From a virus: DNA of 36,365 nt. Positions 464 to 35,220 of the stretch are shown piece by piece (position 1 is the stretch's first letter; each line of letters opens with the position of its first letter). The notes under the pieces are model-generated. The model did no database searches, was not told the DNA's origin, and worked only from the letters and a program-made list of their open reading frames with translations. Location: IMG/VR virus record IMGVR_UViG_3300021379_000791, positions 1 through 36,365 of that record, one strand, 5' to 3'. The position numbers were made by a program, and so were the translations under genes.

Positions 464-672
464 AAAAATTTTGGATTATATTGGCCATGCTCCCGGCCTG
501 TGTATCTGCTGAAAAAGATGAAAGAATTTGCATAGACTTTGGTAGTTATGTAATTGTAAGAGAAAAGTGTACGCCAATGTATGGAACTCTCATATGTGCG
601 GACATAGAAGAAACGAGGACATGGTGTAAACTATATGCGGAAACGGAACCTGTTCGCCCAGAGTCAGACTAA
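460..672 (+). CDS. small exported cysteine-containing protein
   Basis: This 70-residue protein starts with a typical export signal: MKK, a hydrophobic core (FWIILAML) and a possible cleavage site after VSA at about residue 17. Cys14 lies in LPAC, so a lipoprotein is possible, but the proline makes a poor lipobox. The mature part has four cysteines (24, 37, 46, 56), enough for two disulfides in the periplasm. The start overlaps the upstream stop (ATGA), and the end overlaps the alternative oxidase gene by 38 bases. No family is recognised. An envelope-acting role is inferred only from the signal peptide. Confidence 0.6.
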   Translation: MKKFWIILAMLPACVSAEKDERICIDFGSYVIVREKCTPMYGTLICADIEETRTWCKLYAETEPVRPESD

Positions 673-1213
673 ATTTTTTAGATTCTTTGCTGATACTTTT
701 TTTAGAAAGAAGTATGGACAAAGAGCTCTGGTATTAGAAACCGTAGCCGGTGTGCCGGGCATGGTCGGTGGTATGTTAACGCATCTGTATAGTTTACGTA
801 AATTGCAACCGGGCAATGGCACAAAAATACATGAGTTGTTAGCTGAGGCTGAGAACGAGCGAAAGCATTTAATGTTCTTTATGGAGATTGTGCAGCCAAC
901 AAAGCTCGAGCGATTTATTATTACGATCGCACAGTTAGTGTTCTGGCATTACTATCTCTTACTATATCTGATATCGCCAAAAACTGCACATTTGACGATT
1001 GCATATTTCGAAGAAGAAGCAGTTAGAAGCTACACAGACTACATTAGTTTGATCGAGCTAGGTCAAATCGAGAATGTAGATGCACCACAGATCGCAAAAG
1101 ATTATTACAATATGTTACCTGATGCTAAGTTGATTGATATGATTAAATACATACGAGAAGACGAAAGGGGCCACAGTGTGGCTAATTTTAGGTACGCAGA
1201 TGAGTCATCTTGA
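635..1213 (+). CDS. aox: alternative oxidase (di-iron ubiquinol oxidase)
   Basis: This 192-residue protein has all the AOX iron-binding motifs in order: LETVAGVPGMVGGML with Glu35, AENERKHLM with Glu75 and His78, FEEEAVRSYT (Glu126-128), and REDERGH with Glu177 and His180. AOX oxidises ubiquinol and reduces oxygen to water without pumping protons, sitting on one leaflet of the inner membrane. Two hydrophobic helices (about 95-112 and 117-125) fit the membrane-binding surface. The ETVAGVPGMVGG signature is of the mitochondrial/proteobacterial AOX type, not the plastid PTOX type. It is slightly shorter than bacterial AOX at the N terminus, but every ligand is present, so an active enzyme is expected. 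The ATG at 635 is used because the next methionine falls inside the first motif. Confidence 0.93.
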   Translation: MRKRNLFAQSQTKFFRFFADTFFRKKYGQRALVLETVAGVPGMVGGMLTHLYSLRKLQPGNGTKIHELLAEAENERKHLMFFMEIVQPTKLERFIITIAQLVFWHYYLLLYLISPKTAHLTIAYFEEEAVRSYTDYISLIELGQIENVDAPQIAKDYYNMLPDAKLIDMIKYIREDERGHSVANFRYADESS

Positions 1214-2683: not shown

Positions 2684-3370
2684 TTGAGAAGAAAAAAATA
2701 TACGGTATTCGGATTACAACGTAGCGGTACCAATTTCCTAGAGCAGCAATTGATGACAGGTTTACCGAACTGTCGTATCATTAATGCGTATGCTCACGAT
2801 GGCCCATGGAAACACACATACGATATCCACCATGATATCAAAACCATGTATGCCAAAACCACAAACGGATTAGAAACATACGATTATTGGATAGCTCGAC
2901 TGAGAGAGACCAATGCTATATGGATACACAAACATCCAGTGATGTGGGTACAAAGTGTGCTGAAGAAAAACGTAGACTGTCGTCGTCATCCTGATTTTGA
3001 TGGCAAACCTGAAGCAAGAGTAAAATACTACACAGGTACCAAATTAAGTCTATGCAACATGTACAGAAATCATTGGTTGTTTTGGAAAGAACAAAGCCGA
3101 CATCAAAAAATATATCGTGTACCATACGAGCATCTATTGCCCGGTGCAAATGCAAAGATGCATACGAAGATGATCGCAGAGTTTTTCAATGATGATGACT
3201 TTACACCATACGACAGAGCGTTCGATAAAGTACCTATGTCTGCCAAATTTACTGAGGATGATCGTAATAAATATCTAAAGTATGAGACTAACTTGAATGA
3301 AGAAGATCAAGCGTTCATATTAAAGCATGTAGGTAAGGACTGTTTGAAATATTATGGATACGATATATAG
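2684..3370 (+). CDS. sulfotransferase-family protein
   Basis: The 228-residue protein starts at a TTG directly after the upstream stop. No ATG lies between that stop and the first conserved motif. Residues 8-19 (VFGLQRSGTNFL) form the 5'-phosphosulfate-binding loop of PAPS-dependent sulfotransferases. IWIHKHPVMWVQSV (about 79-92) resembles the 3'-phosphate-binding element with its conserved Ser. The likely reaction is transfer of sulfate from PAPS to a sugar or other hydroxyl acceptor. Its neighbours, a FkbM methyltransferase and a GT25-like protein in an overlapping operon, suggest a polysaccharide or glycan acceptor. The acceptor cannot be read from sequence. Confidence 0.72.
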   Translation: MRRKKYTVFGLQRSGTNFLEQQLMTGLPNCRIINAYAHDGPWKHTYDIHHDIKTMYAKTTNGLETYDYWIARLRETNAIWIHKHPVMWVQSVLKKNVDCRRHPDFDGKPEARVKYYTGTKLSLCNMYRNHWLFWKEQSRHQKIYRVPYEHLLPGANAKMHTKMIAEFFNDDDFTPYDRAFDKVPMSAKFTEDDRNKYLKYETNLNEEDQAFILKHVGKDCLKYYGYDI

Positions 3371-4028
3371 AAAATTTGTAGATCATCCAGACGAAGTAAA
3401 AGTTATATTTGAACGATATGACTTAGATGGATTATGGTGGCCAGATATTAAGAGAGGTGATGGTTTATGGACTGGTCCTCTTAAAAACTGGAATGAAGAA
3501 GTTGATGTGTGGTTATCATTTCTTAAAAATTTTGATGTATGTGTACAGGCTGGTGGTGCAGCTGGCATGTATCCAAGATTCTGGTCAGAACATTTCTCGA
3601 AAGTAATCACTTTCGAACCATGCCCTCGAAGTTATTCATGTCTTATACAGAATTGTGTTGGCGATAAGTTTGAAACACACAATCTAGGTTTAGGTAATCC
3701 AAAGCCAGACGAAAAATATCAGATCAACAACAAGAACAAGTCGAATCTAGGTACTCATAAAGTTATAGGACCTGTCAAACATACGAATGCAGATTATACA
3801 GACATTGAAGTTATATCTATCGACTCGTTAGATCTTGAAGTCTGCGACCTTCTACATCTCGACGTAGAAGGATCCGAACAATCTATCATCGACGGTGCAA
3901 TACAAACAATCAAAAGATGTAAGCCTCTTATTATAACAGAACGATCTGGCGGCAAAGCGACACTTGAACAACTAGGATATCGTCAAGTGTTCAAAGGCAG
4001 AATGGATACGGTATTTAGATATGAGTAA
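3354..4028 (+). CDS. FkbM-family SAM-dependent methyltransferase
   Basis: The 224-residue protein overlaps its upstream neighbour by 17 bases. It has the Rossmann motif I as VCVQAGGAAGMYP (62-74), motif II as VITFEPCPRSY with the acidic Glu88, and LLHLDVEGSE (167-176), which is diagnostic of FkbM-type O-methyltransferases. Such enzymes methylate hydroxyls of sugars, polyketides or lipids. In this operon, between a sulfotransferase and a GT25-like protein, sugar O-methylation is the most plausible job. An alternative is methylation of another small molecule. Confidence 0.85.
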   Translation: MDTIYRKFVDHPDEVKVIFERYDLDGLWWPDIKRGDGLWTGPLKNWNEEVDVWLSFLKNFDVCVQAGGAAGMYPRFWSEHFSKVITFEPCPRSYSCLIQNCVGDKFETHNLGLGNPKPDEKYQINNKNKSNLGTHKVIGPVKHTNADYTDIEVISIDSLDLEVCDLLHLDVEGSEQSIIDGAIQTIKRCKPLIITERSGGKATLEQLGYRQVFKGRMDTVFRYE

Positions 4029-4836
4029 ACAAGTCCCAGATAAAGTCTATATAATCTACAATTCTGGCAACGATAAGTCTGAAGAATATATGGGCGTTGC
4101 TCGTAGATCTATCAAGCGTGTTGAGATGGACTTCGAAGAGGTAGATTGGCCTACTGATATAGATGAATGTTGGAAGAAAGTCGAGCATCTCAACATCAAA
4201 GATCATGGTCATTTTAACTATTCGCAACCGTTGTATCCTGACTATCATGCTGATCGTACACCTATCGAACAAAAGAATGCAGCAGAGTCAGTCACTTTAG
4301 CTCATCTATATTTATGGGATAAAATAGCAAAAAGTGGTGAAGCGGCATGCATTGTTGAGCATGACTTTATATTCTATAATAACATCGATATGATCATACC
4401 TGATGGTTTTATTGTCGGCCTAGGATATAAGTTAGCCGAAGCCAATGCATATAGGAATGATTTTCATAACTTAGATGACAAACCAAAAGAAATCGTATTG
4501 GCTGATAAGATACTTGGTGCACATGGCTATGCTATCACAGCAAAGACTGCTCAAAATCTTGTAGACGAGGCGATAAATAAAGGTACACAAGGCTGGATTG
4601 ATTGCGTTTACTTTCAAGGTAACTCATTGAGACTGACTGATACACGAACATCGATGATGAGTCCACCACCCGGTGCTGCATTGTTACGTGATTCTACTAT
4701 CTGGCCTGTTGTTGCAACGTTAAATTATAAGTGTTGTGATTCATTTATTAAACGATGTAAACCAGAATATACAAACAAGAAACGCAACGAAATATCTCGA
4801 CATCACTTCGCAAGCTTAAAAATGAGAAGTGTATAA
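4021..4836 (+). CDS. GT25-like glycosyltransferase (putative)
   Basis: The 271-residue protein overlaps the FkbM gene by eight bases. It has the pattern of GT25/LPS-biosynthesis transferases: an N-terminal strand VYIIYNSG, a middle helix with many Ala and Glu (AAESVTLAHLYLWDKI), ACIVEHDFIFYNN in the place of the usual EDD metal-binding motif, and GAHGYAITAKTAQNLVDEA, resembling the family's GTxGYxxSxxxA element. The EDD motif is degenerate (EHD), so activity is less certain. It is the third gene of a glycan-modifying cluster and ends just before a late promoter. Confidence 0.55.
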   Translation: MSKQVPDKVYIIYNSGNDKSEEYMGVARRSIKRVEMDFEEVDWPTDIDECWKKVEHLNIKDHGHFNYSQPLYPDYHADRTPIEQKNAAESVTLAHLYLWDKIAKSGEAACIVEHDFIFYNNIDMIIPDGFIVGLGYKLAEANAYRNDFHNLDDKPKEIVLADKILGAHGYAITAKTAQNLVDEAINKGTQGWIDCVYFQGNSLRLTDTRTSMMSPPPGAALLRDSTIWPVVATLNYKCCDSFIKRCKPEYTNKKRNEISRHHFASLKMRSV

Positions 4837-16305: not shown

Positions 16306-18594
16306 ATGGAAATTAACGTAATTAAGAGGGATGGAAGTCGCGAAATACTTGACCTAGATAAGTTCCACAAAGTTGCATCATTCGCCTGTGAAGGACTCAA
16401 TGGTGTGTCAGCCTCAGATCTAGAAATTAAGACGCACATTCAATTCTACAATAATATAAAAACACTCGACGTACAAGAAACATTGATCAAGGCAGCCGCA
16501 GATCTTATTACTGAGGACGCGCCTAACTATCAATATGTTGCTGGTCGACTTATTAATTATGGCTTACGCAAAGAGGTTTATGGTCAATTTGAACCAATCA
16601 CTCTTGCGCATCATATCATCAACTGTATCGCCGATGGTATATACGATGGTATCCTCATGGACAAATATAGCATCCATGATATGGAGATCCTCGAGACTTA
16701 TATCAACCATGAGCGTGACTTTAATCTGACATATGCCGCCATGGAACAAATGCGTGGCAAATACCTCGTCAAGAATCGTGTATCTGGTCAGATCTACGAA
16801 ACACCTCAAATGGCGATGATGTGTATTGCTATGACATTGTTTGCTAACTACACTACAGACAGGCTGAAATGGGTAAAAGATCTATATGATGCACTGAGTA
16901 ATTTTGATATTAGCTTGCCTACACCAATCATGGCGGGTGTACGAACGCCTCAACGACAGTTCTCTTCGTGCGTGCTTATCGAGACTGATGACTCACTGGA
17001 TTCTATCAATGCAACATCATCAGCAATCGTCAAGTATGTTTCACAGAAAGCGGGAATCGGTATTGGCGCCGGTCGTATTCGGGCTTTGGGCAGTCCTATT
17101 CGCAACGGCGATACTAGTCATACTGGTGTTATCCCTTTTTATAAGTATTTTCAAAGTGCCGTCAAATCTTGTTCGCAAGGCGGTGTCAGAGGCGGAGCGG
17201 CGACACTCTACTATCCGATCTGGCATTATGAAATCGAAGAAATGCTCGTCCTCAAAAACAACAAAGGAACAGAGGACAACCGAGTAAGGCACATGGATTA
17301 TGGTGTGCAGTTTAATCAAGTTATGTACGAACGCCTGATTAAGAATGAGAACATCACACTCTTCTCTCCTCATGATTGTCCTGACCTATACGAGTCATTC
17401 TTTGTAGACGTAGATAAATTTCGTGAGCTCTATGAAAAGTACGAGCGTAAGACATCTATTCGAAAGAAGGTCATCAATGCGCGAGATCTTTTCTCAGCAT
17501 TTATGCAAGAACGAAAGGATACTGGACGTATCTATTTGATGAATGTTGATAACGCTAATGATCATGGTGCATTTATTAAAGAGCAAGCACCTATTCGTCA
17601 ATCAAATCTATGTTGCGAAATCAATCTACCAACGAAGCCACTTAAGGACATCAACGATGCTGAAGGTGAGATCTCACTGTGTACATTAGCGGCTATCAAT
17701 TGGGGTAGCATTCGTAAGCCTGCTGACTTTGAGAAGCCGTGCACACTTGCTGTTCGTGCTTTAGATGCATTGCTGGATTATCAGGACTATCCTGTGTTGG
17801 CTGCTCAAAAGGGTACAGAAAATCGTCGTCCTTTGGGCGTCGGTATCATCAACTTTGCACACTGGCTGGCGAAGAACGATACGAACTATCAAGATCCAAA
17901 CCTTGAGCTTATTCACGAGTATGCGGAGGCATGGTCTTATTATCTCATTCAGGCATCAGCTGATCTTGCAGTTGAGAAGCATCCATGTCTGAAGTCAGAT
18001 GAGACACGATATCATGAAGGTGTTCTACCAATTGACACATATAAGACGACTGTCGATGAGTTAGTCAAGCCTGAATATAAGATGGATTGGGATGGCTTAC
18101 GTGCACAGTTGGAAAACTTCGGCATTCGTAACTCGACACTCATGGCCTTGATGCCTGCTGAAACATCTGCACAGATAAGTAACAGCACAAACGGTATCGA
18201 ACCACCTCGTTCGTTGATCTCTGTAAAACAATCGAAGGATGGTGTACTCAAGCAAGTTGTGCCAAGTATCCAACGATTGAAGAATAAGTATGACCTTCTA
18301 TGGGATCAGAAATCGCCTGAAGGTTATCTTAAGATTATGGCTGTGTTGCAGAAGTTTATCGATCAAGGTATCTCTGTCAATACAAGCTACAATCCATTGC
18401 ATTTTGATGAGGAGAAAATTCCTCTATCAGTAATGATGCAACATATGTTGATGTTCTACAAGTATGGCGGCAAGCAATTGTATTACAACAACACATATGA
18501 TGGCGCCGGTGAGTTTGTAGAAGCACCACAACCTGAAGCAGAAGGTGCGGTGTGTGATCTTACAGATCCGGATTGTGATGCATGTAAAATTTAA
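16306..18594 (+). CDS. nrdA: ribonucleoside-diphosphate reductase, large subunit (class Ia)
   Basis: The 762-residue subunit reduces ribonucleoside diphosphates to deoxyribonucleotides together with NrdB. An N-terminal ATP-cone (about 1-90, INVIKRDGSREILDLDKF) suggests dATP/ATP activity control. RQFSSCVLIETDDS holds the first redox Cys and the specificity site. SNLCCEINLPT (about 432-442) carries the active-site Cys and Glu. QLYYNNTYDG (near 725) has the two radical-relay tyrosines. The C-terminal tail CDACKI has Cys757 and Cys760 for re-reduction by glutaredoxin, which is encoded at 22553. Length is like T4 NrdA. It starts directly after the nuclease stop. Confidence 0.97.
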   Translation: MEINVIKRDGSREILDLDKFHKVASFACEGLNGVSASDLEIKTHIQFYNNIKTLDVQETLIKAAADLITEDAPNYQYVAGRLINYGLRKEVYGQFEPITLAHHIINCIADGIYDGILMDKYSIHDMEILETYINHERDFNLTYAAMEQMRGKYLVKNRVSGQIYETPQMAMMCIAMTLFANYTTDRLKWVKDLYDALSNFDISLPTPIMAGVRTPQRQFSSCVLIETDDSLDSINATSSAIVKYVSQKAGIGIGAGRIRALGSPIRNGDTSHTGVIPFYKYFQSAVKSCSQGGVRGGAATLYYPIWHYEIEEMLVLKNNKGTEDNRVRHMDYGVQFNQVMYERLIKNENITLFSPHDCPDLYESFFVDVDKFRELYEKYERKTSIRKKVINARDLFSAFMQERKDTGRIYLMNVDNANDHGAFIKEQAPIRQSNLCCEINLPTKPLKDINDAEGEISLCTLAAINWGSIRKPADFEKPCTLAVRALDALLDYQDYPVLAAQKGTENRRPLGVGIINFAHWLAKNDTNYQDPNLELIHEYAEAWSYYLIQASADLAVEKHPCLKSDETRYHEGVLPIDTYKTTVDELVKPEYKMDWDGLRAQLENFGIRNSTLMALMPAETSAQISNSTNGIEPPRSLISVKQSKDGVLKQVVPSIQRLKNKYDLLWDQKSPEGYLKIMAVLQKFIDQGISVNTSYNPLHFDEEKIPLSVMMQHMLMFYKYGGKQLYYNNTYDGAGEFVEAPQPEAEGAVCDLTDPDCDACKI

Positions 18595-18602
18595 GGAACA
18601 TA

Positions 18603-19262
18603 ATGAAAGTAAAATTGATTAGCCATAGTCAAACACCGATCGGTTATATTGACGGACCAGATGATTATAATTCGGCATTAGATTTGGTTGCATACTGTGC
18701 AAGAGTCAGCAATCCATCTAATCAAATGAATAAAGAAACATCTGAAAAATTAGTAAAATATCTCATGAAGCATCAGCATTGGTCGCCTCTCGAAATGGTT
18801 TCAGTGTGTATGGAAGTTGAGACTACTCGAGACATTGCTCGACAACTGTTAAGACATAGATCGTTTTCGTTTCAAGAATTTAGTCAGCGATATGCAAATC
18901 CTGTCGAAGATCTTGACTTCGAAATACGTGAAGCAAGATTGCAGGACGAGAAGAATCGACAGAACAGTATACCATGTGAAAACGATTACATTCGACAACG
19001 CTGGGAAGAAGAACAGCTGAAGGTAATTCATCACGCAAAGAGAGCTTACAACTGGGCAATCAATCATGGTATCGCAAAAGAACAGGCAAGAGTTGTGTTG
19101 CCCGAAGGTAATACAATGTCACGTCTGTATGTGAATGGTACGTTAAGATCGTGGATTCACTATATACAACTGCGCTGTGAAAATGGCACACAACTAGAAC
19201 ATATGGATCTGGCGAAAGAGATCGCCAGAGTCATTTCGGACATATTCCCTATGGAGGTATAA
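18603..19262 (+). CDS. thyX: flavin-dependent thymidylate synthase ThyX
   Basis: The 219-residue enzyme makes dTMP from dUMP using FAD, NADPH and methylenetetrahydrofolate. The diagnostic RHRx7SxR motif is complete: Arg84-His85-Arg86, Ser94 and Arg96 (RHRSFSFQEFSQR). LPEGNTMSRLYVNGTLRSW matches the conserved C-terminal part of the flavin-binding site. It stands between nrdA and nrdB with no gap to nrdB, so dNTP production and dUMP methylation are co-expressed. Confidence 0.97.
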   Translation: MKVKLISHSQTPIGYIDGPDDYNSALDLVAYCARVSNPSNQMNKETSEKLVKYLMKHQHWSPLEMVSVCMEVETTRDIARQLLRHRSFSFQEFSQRYANPVEDLDFEIREARLQDEKNRQNSIPCENDYIRQRWEEEQLKVIHHAKRAYNWAINHGIAKEQARVVLPEGNTMSRLYVNGTLRSWIHYIQLRCENGTQLEHMDLAKEIARVISDIFPMEV

Positions 19263-20306
19263 GTGTCGGTATTCGATACAAGAAAGATAGATGCTACAAC
19301 ACAACCGGCTTTCTTCGGTGATTCGGTTAATATTGCTCGTTACGACAAGCAACGTTATAGCGTATTCGAGAAGATGACAGATAAGCAACTCGGTTTCTTT
19401 TGGAGACCAGAAGAAGTTGATATCTCACGTGATAGCAAAGACTTCAAGGCTCTGTCTACTCAAGAACAACATATCTTTACGAGCAACCTAAAGCGGCAGA
19501 TACTATTAGATTCAGTACAAGGTCGCGGTCCAGTTGAGGTATTTCTACCCTTATGTTCATTGCCTGAGTTAGAGAACTGGCTAATCACTTGGTCATTCTT
19601 CGAGACAATTCACTCACGATCTTACACACATATCATTCGCAATGTGTACAATGATCCAAGCAAAGTATTCGACGAGATGTTGGACATCGAAGAAATAGTA
19701 GACTGTGCGAAGAGTATCTCGAAGTATTATGATGCATTGGCAGAGAATCCTACTAAGCGAAATCTATGGTTGTGTTTAAATGCAGTGAATGCATTGGAAG
19801 GTATTCGATTCTATGTATCATTCGCATGTTCATGGGCATTCGCTGAACTAAAGAAGATGGAAGGCAACGCCAAGATCATTAAGTTTATTGCACGCGATGA
19901 GAATGTGCACATGGCATCAACACAGCAGCTCATCAAGCTGTTACCAAAAGAAGACGAAGAGTATGCCAAGCTAAAAGATGAGTGTGCTGACGAAGTCCGT
20001 GAAATCTTCAGAGATGTTATTGAGCAAGAAAAATCATGGGCACGATATCTTTTTAAAGATGCATCGATGATTGGTTTGAATGATGAGCTACTATGTAATT
20101 ATGTAGACTGGTTAGGCAATAAGCGTATGTATGCCATCGGTCTATCAAACGAGCGCGGTGGTTCTGATCCATTACCATGGACACAAAAGTGGATCTCAGG
20201 TGCTGAAGTACAGGTTGCACCACAGGAAACTGAAATCACATCATACATCATTGGAGGTATTAAGAAAGATGTTACCGATGACACATTCAAAGACTTTGAG
20301 CTTTGA
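19263..20306 (+). CDS. nrdB: ribonucleoside-diphosphate reductase, small subunit (class Ia)
   Basis: The 347-residue di-iron/tyrosyl-radical subunit starts at GTG directly after thyX, with GGAGG (19254-19258) as ribosome site. All ligands can be placed against E. coli NrdB: Asp83 (LLDSVQG), Glu114 and His117 (FETIHSRSYTH), radical Tyr121, Glu179 (ALEGIRFY), Glu213 and His216 (ARDENVH). The C-terminal end (DDTFKDFEL) is the NrdA-docking peptide. It appears complete and active. Confidence 0.97.
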   Translation: MSVFDTRKIDATTQPAFFGDSVNIARYDKQRYSVFEKMTDKQLGFFWRPEEVDISRDSKDFKALSTQEQHIFTSNLKRQILLDSVQGRGPVEVFLPLCSLPELENWLITWSFFETIHSRSYTHIIRNVYNDPSKVFDEMLDIEEIVDCAKSISKYYDALAENPTKRNLWLCLNAVNALEGIRFYVSFACSWAFAELKKMEGNAKIIKFIARDENVHMASTQQLIKLLPKEDEEYAKLKDECADEVREIFRDVIEQEKSWARYLFKDASMIGLNDELLCNYVDWLGNKRMYAIGLSNERGGSDPLPWTQKWISGAEVQVAPQETEITSYIIGGIKKDVTDDTFKDFEL

Positions 20307-32570: not shown

Positions 32571-32803
32571 TGCAATCTATTGATGATTCGCAGGGTATCA
32601 AAGAAGTCCTGCAAGAAATCGAGAAACTGACTCGTGATGGCTCTGATTATTTAGATGCCATCCTTCACTATTGTGAGAAGCATGATATTGAAATCGAGTC
32701 GATTGCTCGATACATTAAGAAAAACGTGGTCCTCAAGGCTCGACTACAGGAAGAGGCTGAGGAATTAAATTATTTGCAAAAAACATCAAGGCTACCGATT
32801 TGA
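32570..32803 (+). CDS. 33: late transcription co-activator (gp33-like)
   Basis: The 77-residue acidic, helical protein has YLDAILHYCEKHDIEIESIA (about 27-46), then IKKNVVLKARLQEEAEELNY and a terminal LPI. The order YxDAxxxxCExxxIExE then L..K...EAE.LN...LPI is that of gp33 in marine T4-like phages. gp33 links RNA polymerase to the sliding clamp for late transcription from TATAAATA promoters, of which this window has several. It overlaps the neighbours by one and four bases. Confidence 0.7.
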   Translation: MQSIDDSQGIKEVLQEIEKLTRDGSDYLDAILHYCEKHDIEIESIARYIKKNVVLKARLQEEAEELNYLQKTSRLPI

Positions 32804-33381
32804 TTTATATGGATGCATACGATGCTTACAAAAAGTTTCTTGCCATCAAATTACATTTCTCAAATCCGAAATACGATTACTTCAAATACCGTGGTCAGGT
32901 AAGAGTAACACGTGATTCGTTCGAGACTCGTAATGACAAGTACCACTTTCATAAGCTAAGCAAGAAACAAGATTTAGAATTATTCCTCGCATGTAATATA
33001 CGAGAGAATGGAGACATGTGGGTAGGTAAGTTGTTTGATGATGAATGTGTCAAACATTTTGTCAACACACAGAAAAAGCTCCAATCACTCGAGTACATGT
33101 TTAAGAATGATATGTCTCAGTTTGATTCACTCAATGAGGCATTCGTCGTCAGTAATGGTGACTATCCTAAAATACTCAACATGTACAATCGCGGGGAGAT
33201 TATGACCGAAACAATGGTCATACTGAATGCTACATGTCGTGTGTTTGATTATTGGGATACCACAATCTCTGACACAATTATATGGCCGAAGACTCGACAA
33301 CGACTCTTAAAATATACGGGCTTCATGAATTTTGACGTAGACAAATACAATGATTTGTTAAAGGATTTATATGATACATAA
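32800..33381 (+). CDS. 59: helicase loader (gp59-like)
   Basis: This 193-residue protein begins MDAYDAYKKFLAIKLHFSN, then YDYFKYRGQVRVTRDSFETR and ENGDMWVGKLF. Its C half has NRGEIMTETMVILNATCRVF and KYTGFMNFD. These blocks and the size (T4 gp59 is 217) match the gp59 family, which loads the replicative helicase on gp32-covered DNA. The nearby gene 32 supports the call. It overlaps the peroxiredoxin gene by 11 bases. Confidence 0.78.
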   Translation: MIYMDAYDAYKKFLAIKLHFSNPKYDYFKYRGQVRVTRDSFETRNDKYHFHKLSKKQDLELFLACNIRENGDMWVGKLFDDECVKHFVNTQKKLQSLEYMFKNDMSQFDSLNEAFVVSNGDYPKILNMYNRGEIMTETMVILNATCRVFDYWDTTISDTIIWPKTRQRLLKYTGFMNFDVDKYNDLLKDLYDT

Positions 33382-33904
33382 ACAAGTGCCTTTCGTTGTC
33401 TTCAATACTCGTGTAAGAGATGAGTCACTTGGAGGCGACAATCCATATCGATGGCAAGATATGACCACAGACGATTACTTCGCAGGCAAGCGAGTGATCG
33501 TATTCAGTTTACCCGGTGCATTCACACCAACCTGTTCAACCTACCAGTTACCTGACTTCGAGGCAATGTTTCCACGATTTCAAGAACTCGGTATCGATGC
33601 AATCTACTGTATCAGTGTCAACGACACATTCGTGATGAATGCATGGGCAAGAGATCAAGGCTTAGAAAACGTACAAGTCATACCTGATGGCTCAGGTGAG
33701 TTCACTCGTATGATGGGTATGCTTGTCAAGAAAGACAATCTAGGTTTTGGTATGCGATCATGGCGTTATGCAATGCTCGTAGACAATGGCGATATCGAAA
33801 CGACGTGGGTAGAACCGGGTCGTGAAGATAATGCCGTCGGCGATCCCTATGGTATGACCTCACCTCAAAATATATTGGAGACGATCGTAGAACCATGGGA
33901 GTAA
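33371..33904 (+). CDS. peroxiredoxin (Prx5/redoxin type)
   Basis: The 177-residue protein has the peroxidatic motif PGAFTPTCS with Cys55, preceded by RVIVFSLPG and followed by LPDFEAMFPRFQELGID and CISVNDTFVMNAWA, the typical Prx5 order. WRYAMLVDNGDI and the C terminus are complete. It reduces peroxides with glutathione or glutaredoxin as donor. Cys69-type resolving cysteines are not evident, so a one-Cys mechanism is likely. It is inserted between gp59-like and gp32-like genes. Confidence 0.92.
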   Translation: MIHKQVPFVVFNTRVRDESLGGDNPYRWQDMTTDDYFAGKRVIVFSLPGAFTPTCSTYQLPDFEAMFPRFQELGIDAIYCISVNDTFVMNAWARDQGLENVQVIPDGSGEFTRMMGMLVKKDNLGFGMRSWRYAMLVDNGDIETTWVEPGREDNAVGDPYGMTSPQNILETIVEPWE

Positions 33905-33933
33905 TTATTGACACACAAAAAAGGAACACACAC

Positions 33934-34203
33934 ATGTCCACAACAACACCTTACGAATTAAGATTTAAAGTTCTCGAAATGGCACGTGATCTATGCATGG
34001 ATGAATTCAATATGAAGTCACATGCTTTTCATGATCTACAAAGTCGACTTGAAGAAAAGCTTGATGGTCCGATTGGTGAGAACACAGCTCTCGTTATACG
34101 AGATATGATCGATGATTTGGTTGAGGCTACACCCTCGATGCCAAAGACTGAACAGATCAACGCCAAAGCGAAGGAACTCTACGAATTTGTATCCACGAAG
34201 TGA
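33934..34203 (+). CDS. conserved small T4-like phage protein
   Basis: The 89-residue product starts at the ATG at 33934 after AAGGA. It has TTPYELRFKVLEMARDLCMD, a helical middle, and PKTEQINAKAKELYEFVS. The TPYxLRFxxxxMAxD...AKAKELYxFV order recurs in marine T4-like phages near genes 59 and 32. No function is known. Its stop is followed immediately by the gene 32 promoters. Confidence 0.75.
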   Translation: MSTTTPYELRFKVLEMARDLCMDEFNMKSHAFHDLQSRLEEKLDGPIGENTALVIRDMIDDLVEATPSMPKTEQINAKAKELYEFVSTK

Positions 34204-34211
34204 TATAAATA
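34204..34211 (+). promoter_or_regulatory. T4-type late promoter (TATAAATA)
   Basis: An exact TATAAATA directly after the TGA of the preceding gene and two bases upstream of a TGTACA box. It would give gene 32 late expression with a leader of about 85 bases. Confidence 0.65.
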
Positions 34212-34213
34212 CC

Positions 34214-34242
34214 TGTACAGCAGGCTCGTCTTGCTGTACAAT
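34214..34242 (+). promoter_or_regulatory. phage promoter, TGTACA-17-TACAAT type
   Basis: TGTACA (34214-34219) and TACAAT (34237-34242) with 17 bases between. A second TGTACA (34235-34240) overlaps the -10 box. It stands 63 bases before gene 32. Confidence 0.7.
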
Positions 34243-34305
34243 AAACTGTTACATAATGAATACTGTGAATAAACTGCTCATACACTGCAATACAAGGAAA
34301 TACAT

Positions 34306-35220
34306 ATGAACGATTTTGCATCCCTCAAATCCTCACGTAAGTCGCAATTCGATAAGCTCTCAGCAGCAGCCGAGAAAGTCAGCGGCAATCAACAACAGAA
34401 CAATGGACCAGATGAACGATTCTGGAAGCCAACAGTCGATAAGGCTGGCAATGGTTCTGCTATCATTCGATTCCTACCTGCACCAGCCGGTGAAGACGTA
34501 CCATTCGTCCGATACTGGGATCACGGCTTTCAAGGGCCCGGTGGTTGGTACATCGAGAAGTCATTAACATCCATCGGTCTCGATGATCCTGTTGGTGAGT
34601 TCAACTCAAAGCTTTGGAACTCTGGTCTTGAATCAGACAAAGAGATTGCTCGTAAGCAGAAGCGTCGTCTTCACTACGTCAGCAATATTCTTGTCGTCTC
34701 TGATCCAGCCGCACCTCACAATGAAGGTAAGGTGTTCCTCTATGAGTATGGTAAGAAGATCTTTGATAAGATCAATGACCTCATGCATCCTGCATTCGAA
34801 GACGAAGATGCTGTAAATCCATTCGACTTCTGGGAAGGTGCTAACTTCCGTCTACGCATTCGCAAGGTGGAAGGCTATCGAAACTACGACAAGTCAGCAT
34901 TCGATTCTCCGACTGCTGTGTCAAATGATGATTCAGAACTCGAAGCGATTTGGAAACGTCAGTATGGTCTTGCCGAACAGGTAGATCCTAAGCAATTCAA
35001 GTCATACGAAGAACTTCAACAGAAGTTGAATCGTGTACTTGGTGGACAGGCTCCTCAAGGTATGGCCGAGGATGTACCATCAGCCGCGCCACAATCGGCG
35101 CCAGCATGGGAACCTCCTGTTGACGACGTAGTTGCAGATGCTCCGGCTGTTGCTCCGGCTCCAACATTTGAAGATGATGATGACTCGCTAGACTTCTTTA
35201 AGAAACTCGCAGCGGAATAG
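34306..35220 (+). CDS. 32: single-stranded DNA-binding protein (gp32-like), without zinc cysteines
   Basis: The 304-residue protein coats single-stranded DNA in replication and recombination. The N-terminal LAST-like basic patch is SLKSSRKSQ (6-14). The core shows GGWYIEKSLTSIG, RRLHYVSNILVVSDPAAPHN, EGKVFLYEYGKKIFDKI and FDFWEGANFRLRIRKVEGYR, matching the gp32 fold. The acidic C-terminal tail (FEDDDDSLDFF) recruits partners such as gp59. T4 gp32 binds zinc with three Cys and one His; here the whole protein has no Cys, so zinc is not bound that way. AAGGAA precedes the ATG. Confidence 0.93.
   Translation: MNDFASLKSSRKSQFDKLSAAAEKVSGNQQQNNGPDERFWKPTVDKAGNGSAIIRFLPAPAGEDVPFVRYWDHGFQGPGGWYIEKSLTSIGLDDPVGEFNSKLWNSGLESDKEIARKQKRRLHYVSNILVVSDPAAPHNEGKVFLYEYGKKIFDKINDLMHPAFEDEDAVNPFDFWEGANFRLRIRKVEGYRNYDKSAFDSPTAVSNDDSELEAIWKRQYGLAEQVDPKQFKSYEELQQKLNRVLGGQAPQGMAEDVPSAAPQSAPAWEPPVDDVVADAPAVAPAPTFEDDDDSLDFFKKLAAE

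Follow-up and report, generated by a model that had tools for sequence, protein, structure and literature searches.

An alternative oxidase gene and its immediate neighbours

The window, that is, the whole stretch of DNA analysed, is a virus record of 36,365 bases and represents a fragment. At 635 bases from its end it contains an open reading frame (635-1213, plus strand) with an ATG start and without internal stops, which encodes a 192 aa alternative oxidase (AOX; a non-haem di-iron ubiquinol:O2 oxidoreductase). The Pfam AOX family (PF01786) matches this product with an E value of 2.6e-63 and 214 bits, against a cut-off of 22.7, over residues 7-189 of the protein and positions 23-216 of the 216 in the profile. 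Among Protein Data Bank profiles, trypanosome AOX alone matched, with all the ligands and the quinone pocket covered.

The first iron ligand, E35 (codon 737-739, in LETVAGVPGM), aligns with the Glu of the LET motif of solved AOX. Profile alignment with solved AOX and an alignment of 93 copies placed the remaining ligands at E75 and H78 (857-868, NERKHL), E126 (1010-1012, FEEEAVRSY) and E177 and H180 (1163-1174, DERGH), and the equivalent of the catalytic Tyr at Y133 (1031-1033), all on the plus strand. The AOX signature is intact in the window protein (LETVAGVPGMVGGM), and all six ligands are invariant across the 93 distinct phage AOX genes. The catalytic Tyr is Y220 in the Trypanosoma brucei enzyme, whose ubiquinol-pocket and catalytic positions are R96, D100, R118, L122, E215, A216, T219 and Y220. 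Their equivalents are kept in the window AOX as R16, D20, R30, L34, E128, A129 and Y133, T219 being replaced by Ser (S132); R16 and D20 fall on the RxxxD quinone-pocket pair in the alignment with trypanosome AOX. These residues, S132 included, are also invariant in the 93 phage genes, with one row gapped at positions 16 and 20.

An AlphaFold model built from a 42-sequence alignment (pLDDT 90.4, pTM 0.86) was used for structure searches, in which all 14 significant Protein Data Bank matches were trypanosome AOX, with TM scores of up to 0.92, a deviation of 1.4 Å and 42% identity to the T. brucei protein. By sequence and predicted structure the reading frame is an intact member of the AOX family. 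The initial annotation, which had described a complete AOX with all six iron ligands, is thus borne out by the Pfam match, the ligand alignment and the structure match. A chance resemblance is excluded by purifying selection on the gene, the match to a solved AOX structure and the existence of at least 477 relatives in IMG/VR (see below).

The AOX gene is flanked on the same strand by an exported Cys protein and two tiny membrane proteins, as had been noticed from the sequence at the outset. Upstream, positions 460-672 encode a small Cys-rich exported protein of 70 aa, a probable lipoprotein with a lipobox-like MLPAC motif, whose gene extends 38 nt into that of AOX. No Pfam match was found for it, and its homologues carry similar motifs (LGGC, LSAC, VSAC or LAGC). 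Downstream are a 45 aa DUF6356 small membrane protein (1200-1337, from the ATG at 1200; PF19883, 1.1e-9) and a single-helix membrane protein of 45 aa (1330-1467), hereafter TM45. These are followed by a gene for a DUF6267/phrog_455 phage protein (1454-2683; PF19782, 9.9e-103; phrog_455, 4.5e-95), which is taken as downstream context. The five genes overlap end to end, those for the Cys protein, AOX, DUF6356 and TM45 by 4-38 nt, suggesting that the region 460-2683 constitutes a single operon. Further downstream (2684-4836) lies a row of sulfotransferase-like, FkbM methyltransferase and family-25 glycosyltransferase genes, perhaps related to surface sugar modification.

Relationship to PTOX and COQ7

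Cyanophages carry a related enzyme, the plastid-type oxidase PTOX, and the window protein had been assigned at first sight to the other, mitochondrial/proteobacterial type. This assignment holds on three grounds. The only PHROG match of the window AOX is the PTOX family phrog_4235, with an E value of 0.0013; the PTOX of cyanophage syn9, whose signature reads LEEIARAPYF, sits on a very long branch of the tree; and the PTOX of cyanophage S-N03 shows 19% identity and a TM score of 0.76 to the AOX model. PTOX identity was therefore ruled out by profile, tree and structure. Rooting on PTOX proved unreliable due to the very long branch, and the tree was rebuilt without it. Identity as COQ7/DMQ hydroxylase was also rejected, the COQ7 profile scoring 14.5 bits (cut-off 23.5) and COQ7 being the best non-AOX structure match of the model with an E value of only 0.25.

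Residence of the gene in phage genomes

The view that a T4-like phage carries the AOX is upheld by the gene content of the window, which includes gp32, gp59, primase, NrdA, NrdB, thymidylate synthase, dCMP deaminase, PhoH and other T4-like genes. On the plus strand, nucleotide metabolism genes occupy positions 16306-20306 (nrdA 16306-18594, thymidylate synthase 18603-19262, nrdB 19263-20306), and the hallmarks gp59 (32800-33381) and gp32 (34306-35220) lie within 32800-35220. Between the latter two, and overlapping the gp59 gene, is a peroxiredoxin gene (33371-33904, plus strand; PF08534).

A 24-kb contig (L163) is 78% identical in DNA sequence to the window over positions 494-1332 and 72% over 1454-2684, and joins AOX to the phage protein DUF6267; TM45 is missing from it, so that DUF6356 adjoins DUF6267 directly. 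Also, the complete circular 156-kb genome of phage C48C1 (Kyanoviridae) encodes an AOX 66% identical to that of the window, the only match among 50,697 phage records. This gene (L001:12013-12564, OQ984149.1) is annotated as a hypothetical protein. The third-position GC content (GC3) of the window AOX, 0.42, matches the upper limit of the 0.28-0.42 spanned by its neighbouring phage genes. Given that L163 has the same cassette and that a complete phage carries the gene, an assembly artefact of bacterial origin, the possibility against which the initial reading had to be checked, is excluded. Cellular contamination or a chimeric assembly, which the shortness of the 36-kb record and the position of AOX next to its end might suggest, is consequently given practically no weight in view of the conserved L163 cassette, the C48C1 gene and a GC3 within the phage range. 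With T4-like hallmarks around it, a copy in a complete phage and a dN/dS of 0.07, the gene qualifies as a phage auxiliary metabolic gene.

Distribution, selection and origin

At least 477 IMG/VR contigs encode AOX relatives, a lower bound obtained by scanning with two short patterns and including some redundant entries. Of 150 viral loci retrieved, 99 showed T4-like core genes with a limited set of queries. Phage AOX is under purifying selection, the median dN/dS being 0.074 and the maximum 0.177 across 212 pairs (dS 0.1-1.5) drawn from 93 distinct genes; between the window gene and its relative in L002, dN is 0.106 and dS 1.62. One contig with an AOX gene (L089) was assigned to a Synechococcus MAG; around AOX, however, it resembles phage contigs L208-L210 at 95-99%, and it is probably a mis-binned phage.

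In the phylogeny, which had been proposed with the initial annotation as a check, the window AOX groups beside marine gammaproteobacterial AOX and far from the syn9 PTOX. It shares with 44 other phage rows one side of a branch supported at 98% (SH-aLRT), and this 45-row main clade sits next to the AOX of SAR86, SAR92 and Halieaceae. Monophyly of all phage AOX was rejected when the 50 phage rows were forced together (p-AU 0.011), and the tree requires five label changes, which argues for a single main lineage in phages and a small number of additional transfers. On the tree, the latter involve SAR86-, SAR92- and Halieaceae-like lineages. The most likely source of the phage gene is marine Gammaproteobacteria, from which a clade of marine T4-like phages would have acquired and retained it. 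From the same tree we infer a marine gammaproteobacterial host for the window phage; a tRNA search gave no pointer to the host. AOX is sparse in cells, occurring in 8 of 185 Gammaproteobacteria, 19 of 190 Alphaproteobacteria and 22 of 61 SAR86-family genomes. Since most of the sampled Gammaproteobacteria have no AOX, the phage host may lack an AOX physiology of its own.

Gene neighbourhoods in other phages

About 40 loci have AOX between gp45 and gp44, encoded on the same strand and preceded by a membrane protein of 82 aa; in one lineage the gene sits within the replication operon. In one locus (L062:1208-2032) the 82-aa protein is fused in frame to AOX, giving a product of 274 aa. The order nrdA-AOX-nrdB occurs in three phage loci (L218, L221 and L231), and nrdB or nrdA is near AOX in some others. 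The initial annotation had proposed that AOX would keep ubiquinol oxidised when the proton-pumping chain is blocked, in support of dNTP synthesis; on the basis of gene position, a link of AOX to dNTP supply is plausible. Both genes are also found near AOX in the SAR11 genomes L143, L150, L151, L153 and L157.

A phage isocitrate lyase gene (PF00463, 1e-90) adjoins AOX or lies at most 3 kb away in ten loci (L174, L175, L176, L164, L166, L169, L203, L224, L226 and L230), pointing to a glyoxylate-shunt companion; isocitrate lyase is known from marine viruses (PMC4053976, PMC5332604). A phage cytochrome c of 147 aa (PF00034, CAACH motif) is encoded near AOX and nrdA/nrdB in L208/L209, L089, L006, L205, L214, L221 and L230, about 1.0-1.4 kb upstream of AOX in L208/L209 and L089. 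A two-helix membrane protein of 110 aa also recurs near AOX in other phages, and peroxiredoxin is found near it in 19 non-redundant phage loci. Homologues of the small window proteins recur as well: the Cys protein in 8 phage AOX loci, in 6 of which (the window included) it is directly upstream of AOX, TM45 in 16 and DUF6356 in 12. In a MAG contig (L096:320-5858) isocitrate lyase, AOX, the two-helix protein and TM45 follow one another and precede CoxB and CoxA, subunits II and I of cytochrome c oxidase; this contig could be a phage, a host locus or a chimera.

The association was examined reciprocally by comparing 58 non-redundant loci found through the 110-aa two-helix protein with 39 control loci found through DUF6267. 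The former hold AOX in 18 cases, TM45 in 30, DUF6356 in 16, cytochrome c in 12 and isocitrate lyase in 7, whereas none of the five occurs in the controls, so that DUF6267 itself is not specific to AOX. For AOX the enrichment (18/58 against 0/39) has a Fisher p of 2.7e-5, uncorrected for kinship between phages, and in whole contigs AOX was present in 9 of 15 from the two-helix set against 0 of 7 controls. Since the reciprocal test was enriched and the controls were empty, the gene set is real as an association in phages. Of the small respiration module postulated in the initial annotation, the recurrent synteny is thus confirmed, the role of the small proteins in respiration being putative.

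Several candidate partnerships found no support. For DUF6356 as a general partner of AOX in bacteria the data gave none, as it occurs in 13 of 185 Gammaproteobacteria and shares 2 of the 8 genomes with AOX; in one SAR86 genome (G001) the two genes are about 770 kb apart. Nor was the two-helix protein supported as an obligate partner in SAR86, being present in 14 of 22 AOX genomes where 11.5 are expected (p 0.15). Specificity of peroxiredoxin to AOX was not supported either, since it also occurs in two large T4-like contigs (G395 and G396) in which no AOX was found.

Possible roles during infection

The reading we regard as probable is that the protein is a functional monotopic di-iron ubiquinol oxidase, most likely acquired from marine Gammaproteobacteria, which would sustain the flow of carbon and reducing equivalents in the infected cell. 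AOX enzymes oxidise quinols and add nothing to the protonmotive force (PMC6431628), and from this family chemistry the phage enzyme would re-oxidise ubiquinol and reduce O2 to water without proton pumping. It would be located at the inner surface of the host membrane, allowing complex I/II and central carbon metabolism to keep turning as NADH and succinate are re-oxidised, and carbon skeletons and NADPH would thereby be supplied for nucleotides and phage protein. Such flux could persist under a high proton-motive force, under a shortage of ADP, or when the host cytochrome oxidases fail or are no longer renewed; the enzyme would also limit over-reduction and the formation of reactive oxygen species (ROS). 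The model assumes ubiquinone and a compatible respiratory chain in the phage host. The presence of isocitrate lyase beside AOX in other phages is consistent with a carbon-conserving rerouting. Its recurrence near AOX along with cytochrome c agrees with a reshaping of respiration and TCA flux, and such neighbours suggest that phages with AOX rewire host respiration during infection.

Alternatively, AOX could act mainly against oxidative stress, draining an over-reduced quinone pool and lowering ROS together with the phage peroxiredoxin rather than sustaining biosynthetic flux. The 19 loci with peroxiredoxin near AOX, and the copy in the window itself, speak in its favour; however, its occurrence in contigs G395 and G396, where no AOX was found, makes the pairing unspecific and the adjacent isocitrate lyase points to carbon flux, so that this role is considered possible but clearly less likely as the main one.

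Equally tentative is the idea that DUF6356, TM45, the two-helix protein, the Cys-rich lipoprotein and cytochrome c act on the host's cytochrome branch, redirecting or inhibiting it, with AOX taking the diverted electrons. The genes recur together in many orders, as the 58 two-helix loci and the 39 empty controls illustrate, and CoxB and CoxA follow such a cluster in L096. Yet bacterial DUF6356 has no link to AOX, in SAR86 the two-helix protein and AOX are found together at a frequency expected by chance, and shared phage ancestry may account for part of the clustering. In its broadest form, to which we attach the same limited credence, marine T4-like phages infecting heterotrophs, probably Gammaproteobacteria, would possess a shuffling set of AOX, cytochrome c, isocitrate lyase, the Cys-rich lipoprotein and three small membrane proteins, by which host electrons leave the proton-pumping cytochrome branch for a phage-encoded oxidase and carbon is directed through the glyoxylate shunt.

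Hosts of the SAR86/SAR92 type often have proteorhodopsin, and AOX might be used as cyanophages use PTOX, to relieve light-driven over-reduction. PTOX belongs to the same superfamily and is carried by cyanophages (PMC3037559, PMC7472177), but the window sequence is of the AOX type, far from PTOX, and the C48C1 annotation contains no photosystem, plastocyanin or PTOX gene, which makes such a use unlikely. Still more improbable is a di-iron protein that has lost its quinol oxidase activity or changed its substrate: the N-terminus is short in this 192 aa protein, but catalytic and pocket residues are invariant in 93 copies and dN/dS is 0.07.

Should the oxidase be active, then a terminal oxidase serving aerobic heterotrophic respiration is encoded on hundreds of marine phage contigs, as the counterpart of cyanophage PTOX and photosystem genes, and estimates of oxygen use and carbon efficiency in infected marine bacteria would be affected. 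The idea that phages feed their replication by uncoupling the respiration of the host from ATP synthesis becomes testable. Also, proteins at present annotated as hypothetical gain names, and a set of small membrane proteins is defined.

Comparison with known oxidases

A search confined to open-access papers recovered no account of a bacteriophage with an AOX-type oxidase. The phage protein shares with mitochondrial and proteobacterial AOX, represented by the T. brucei enzyme (3VV9), the six Glu/His ligands, the catalytic Tyr, the quinone pocket and the helical fold. It differs from 3VV9 in its shorter N-terminus, in being phage-encoded and in the Thr to Ser change in the pocket (S132), found in all phage copies examined. 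Its closest cellular relatives are the AOX of SAR86, SAR92/Porticoccaceae and Halieaceae, about 59-63% identical, but the main phage copies are set apart in a supported clade of their own and have other gene neighbourhoods.

Cyanophage PTOX (phrog_4235; syn9, S-N03) belongs to the same di-iron oxidase superfamily and is likewise carried by T4-like marine phages. While PTOX acts on plastoquinol in photosynthetic hosts, the phage AOX presumably uses ubiquinol in heterotrophic ones. The alternative oxidases of prasinoviruses, which infect algae, are also AOX/PTOX-superfamily enzymes of marine viruses and have been placed in the PTOX group (PMC12584671, Fig. 6 legend). The cydAB genes of a hydrothermal-vent virus (PMC12043954) provide another viral auxiliary terminal oxidase, but one of the unrelated haem bd-type.
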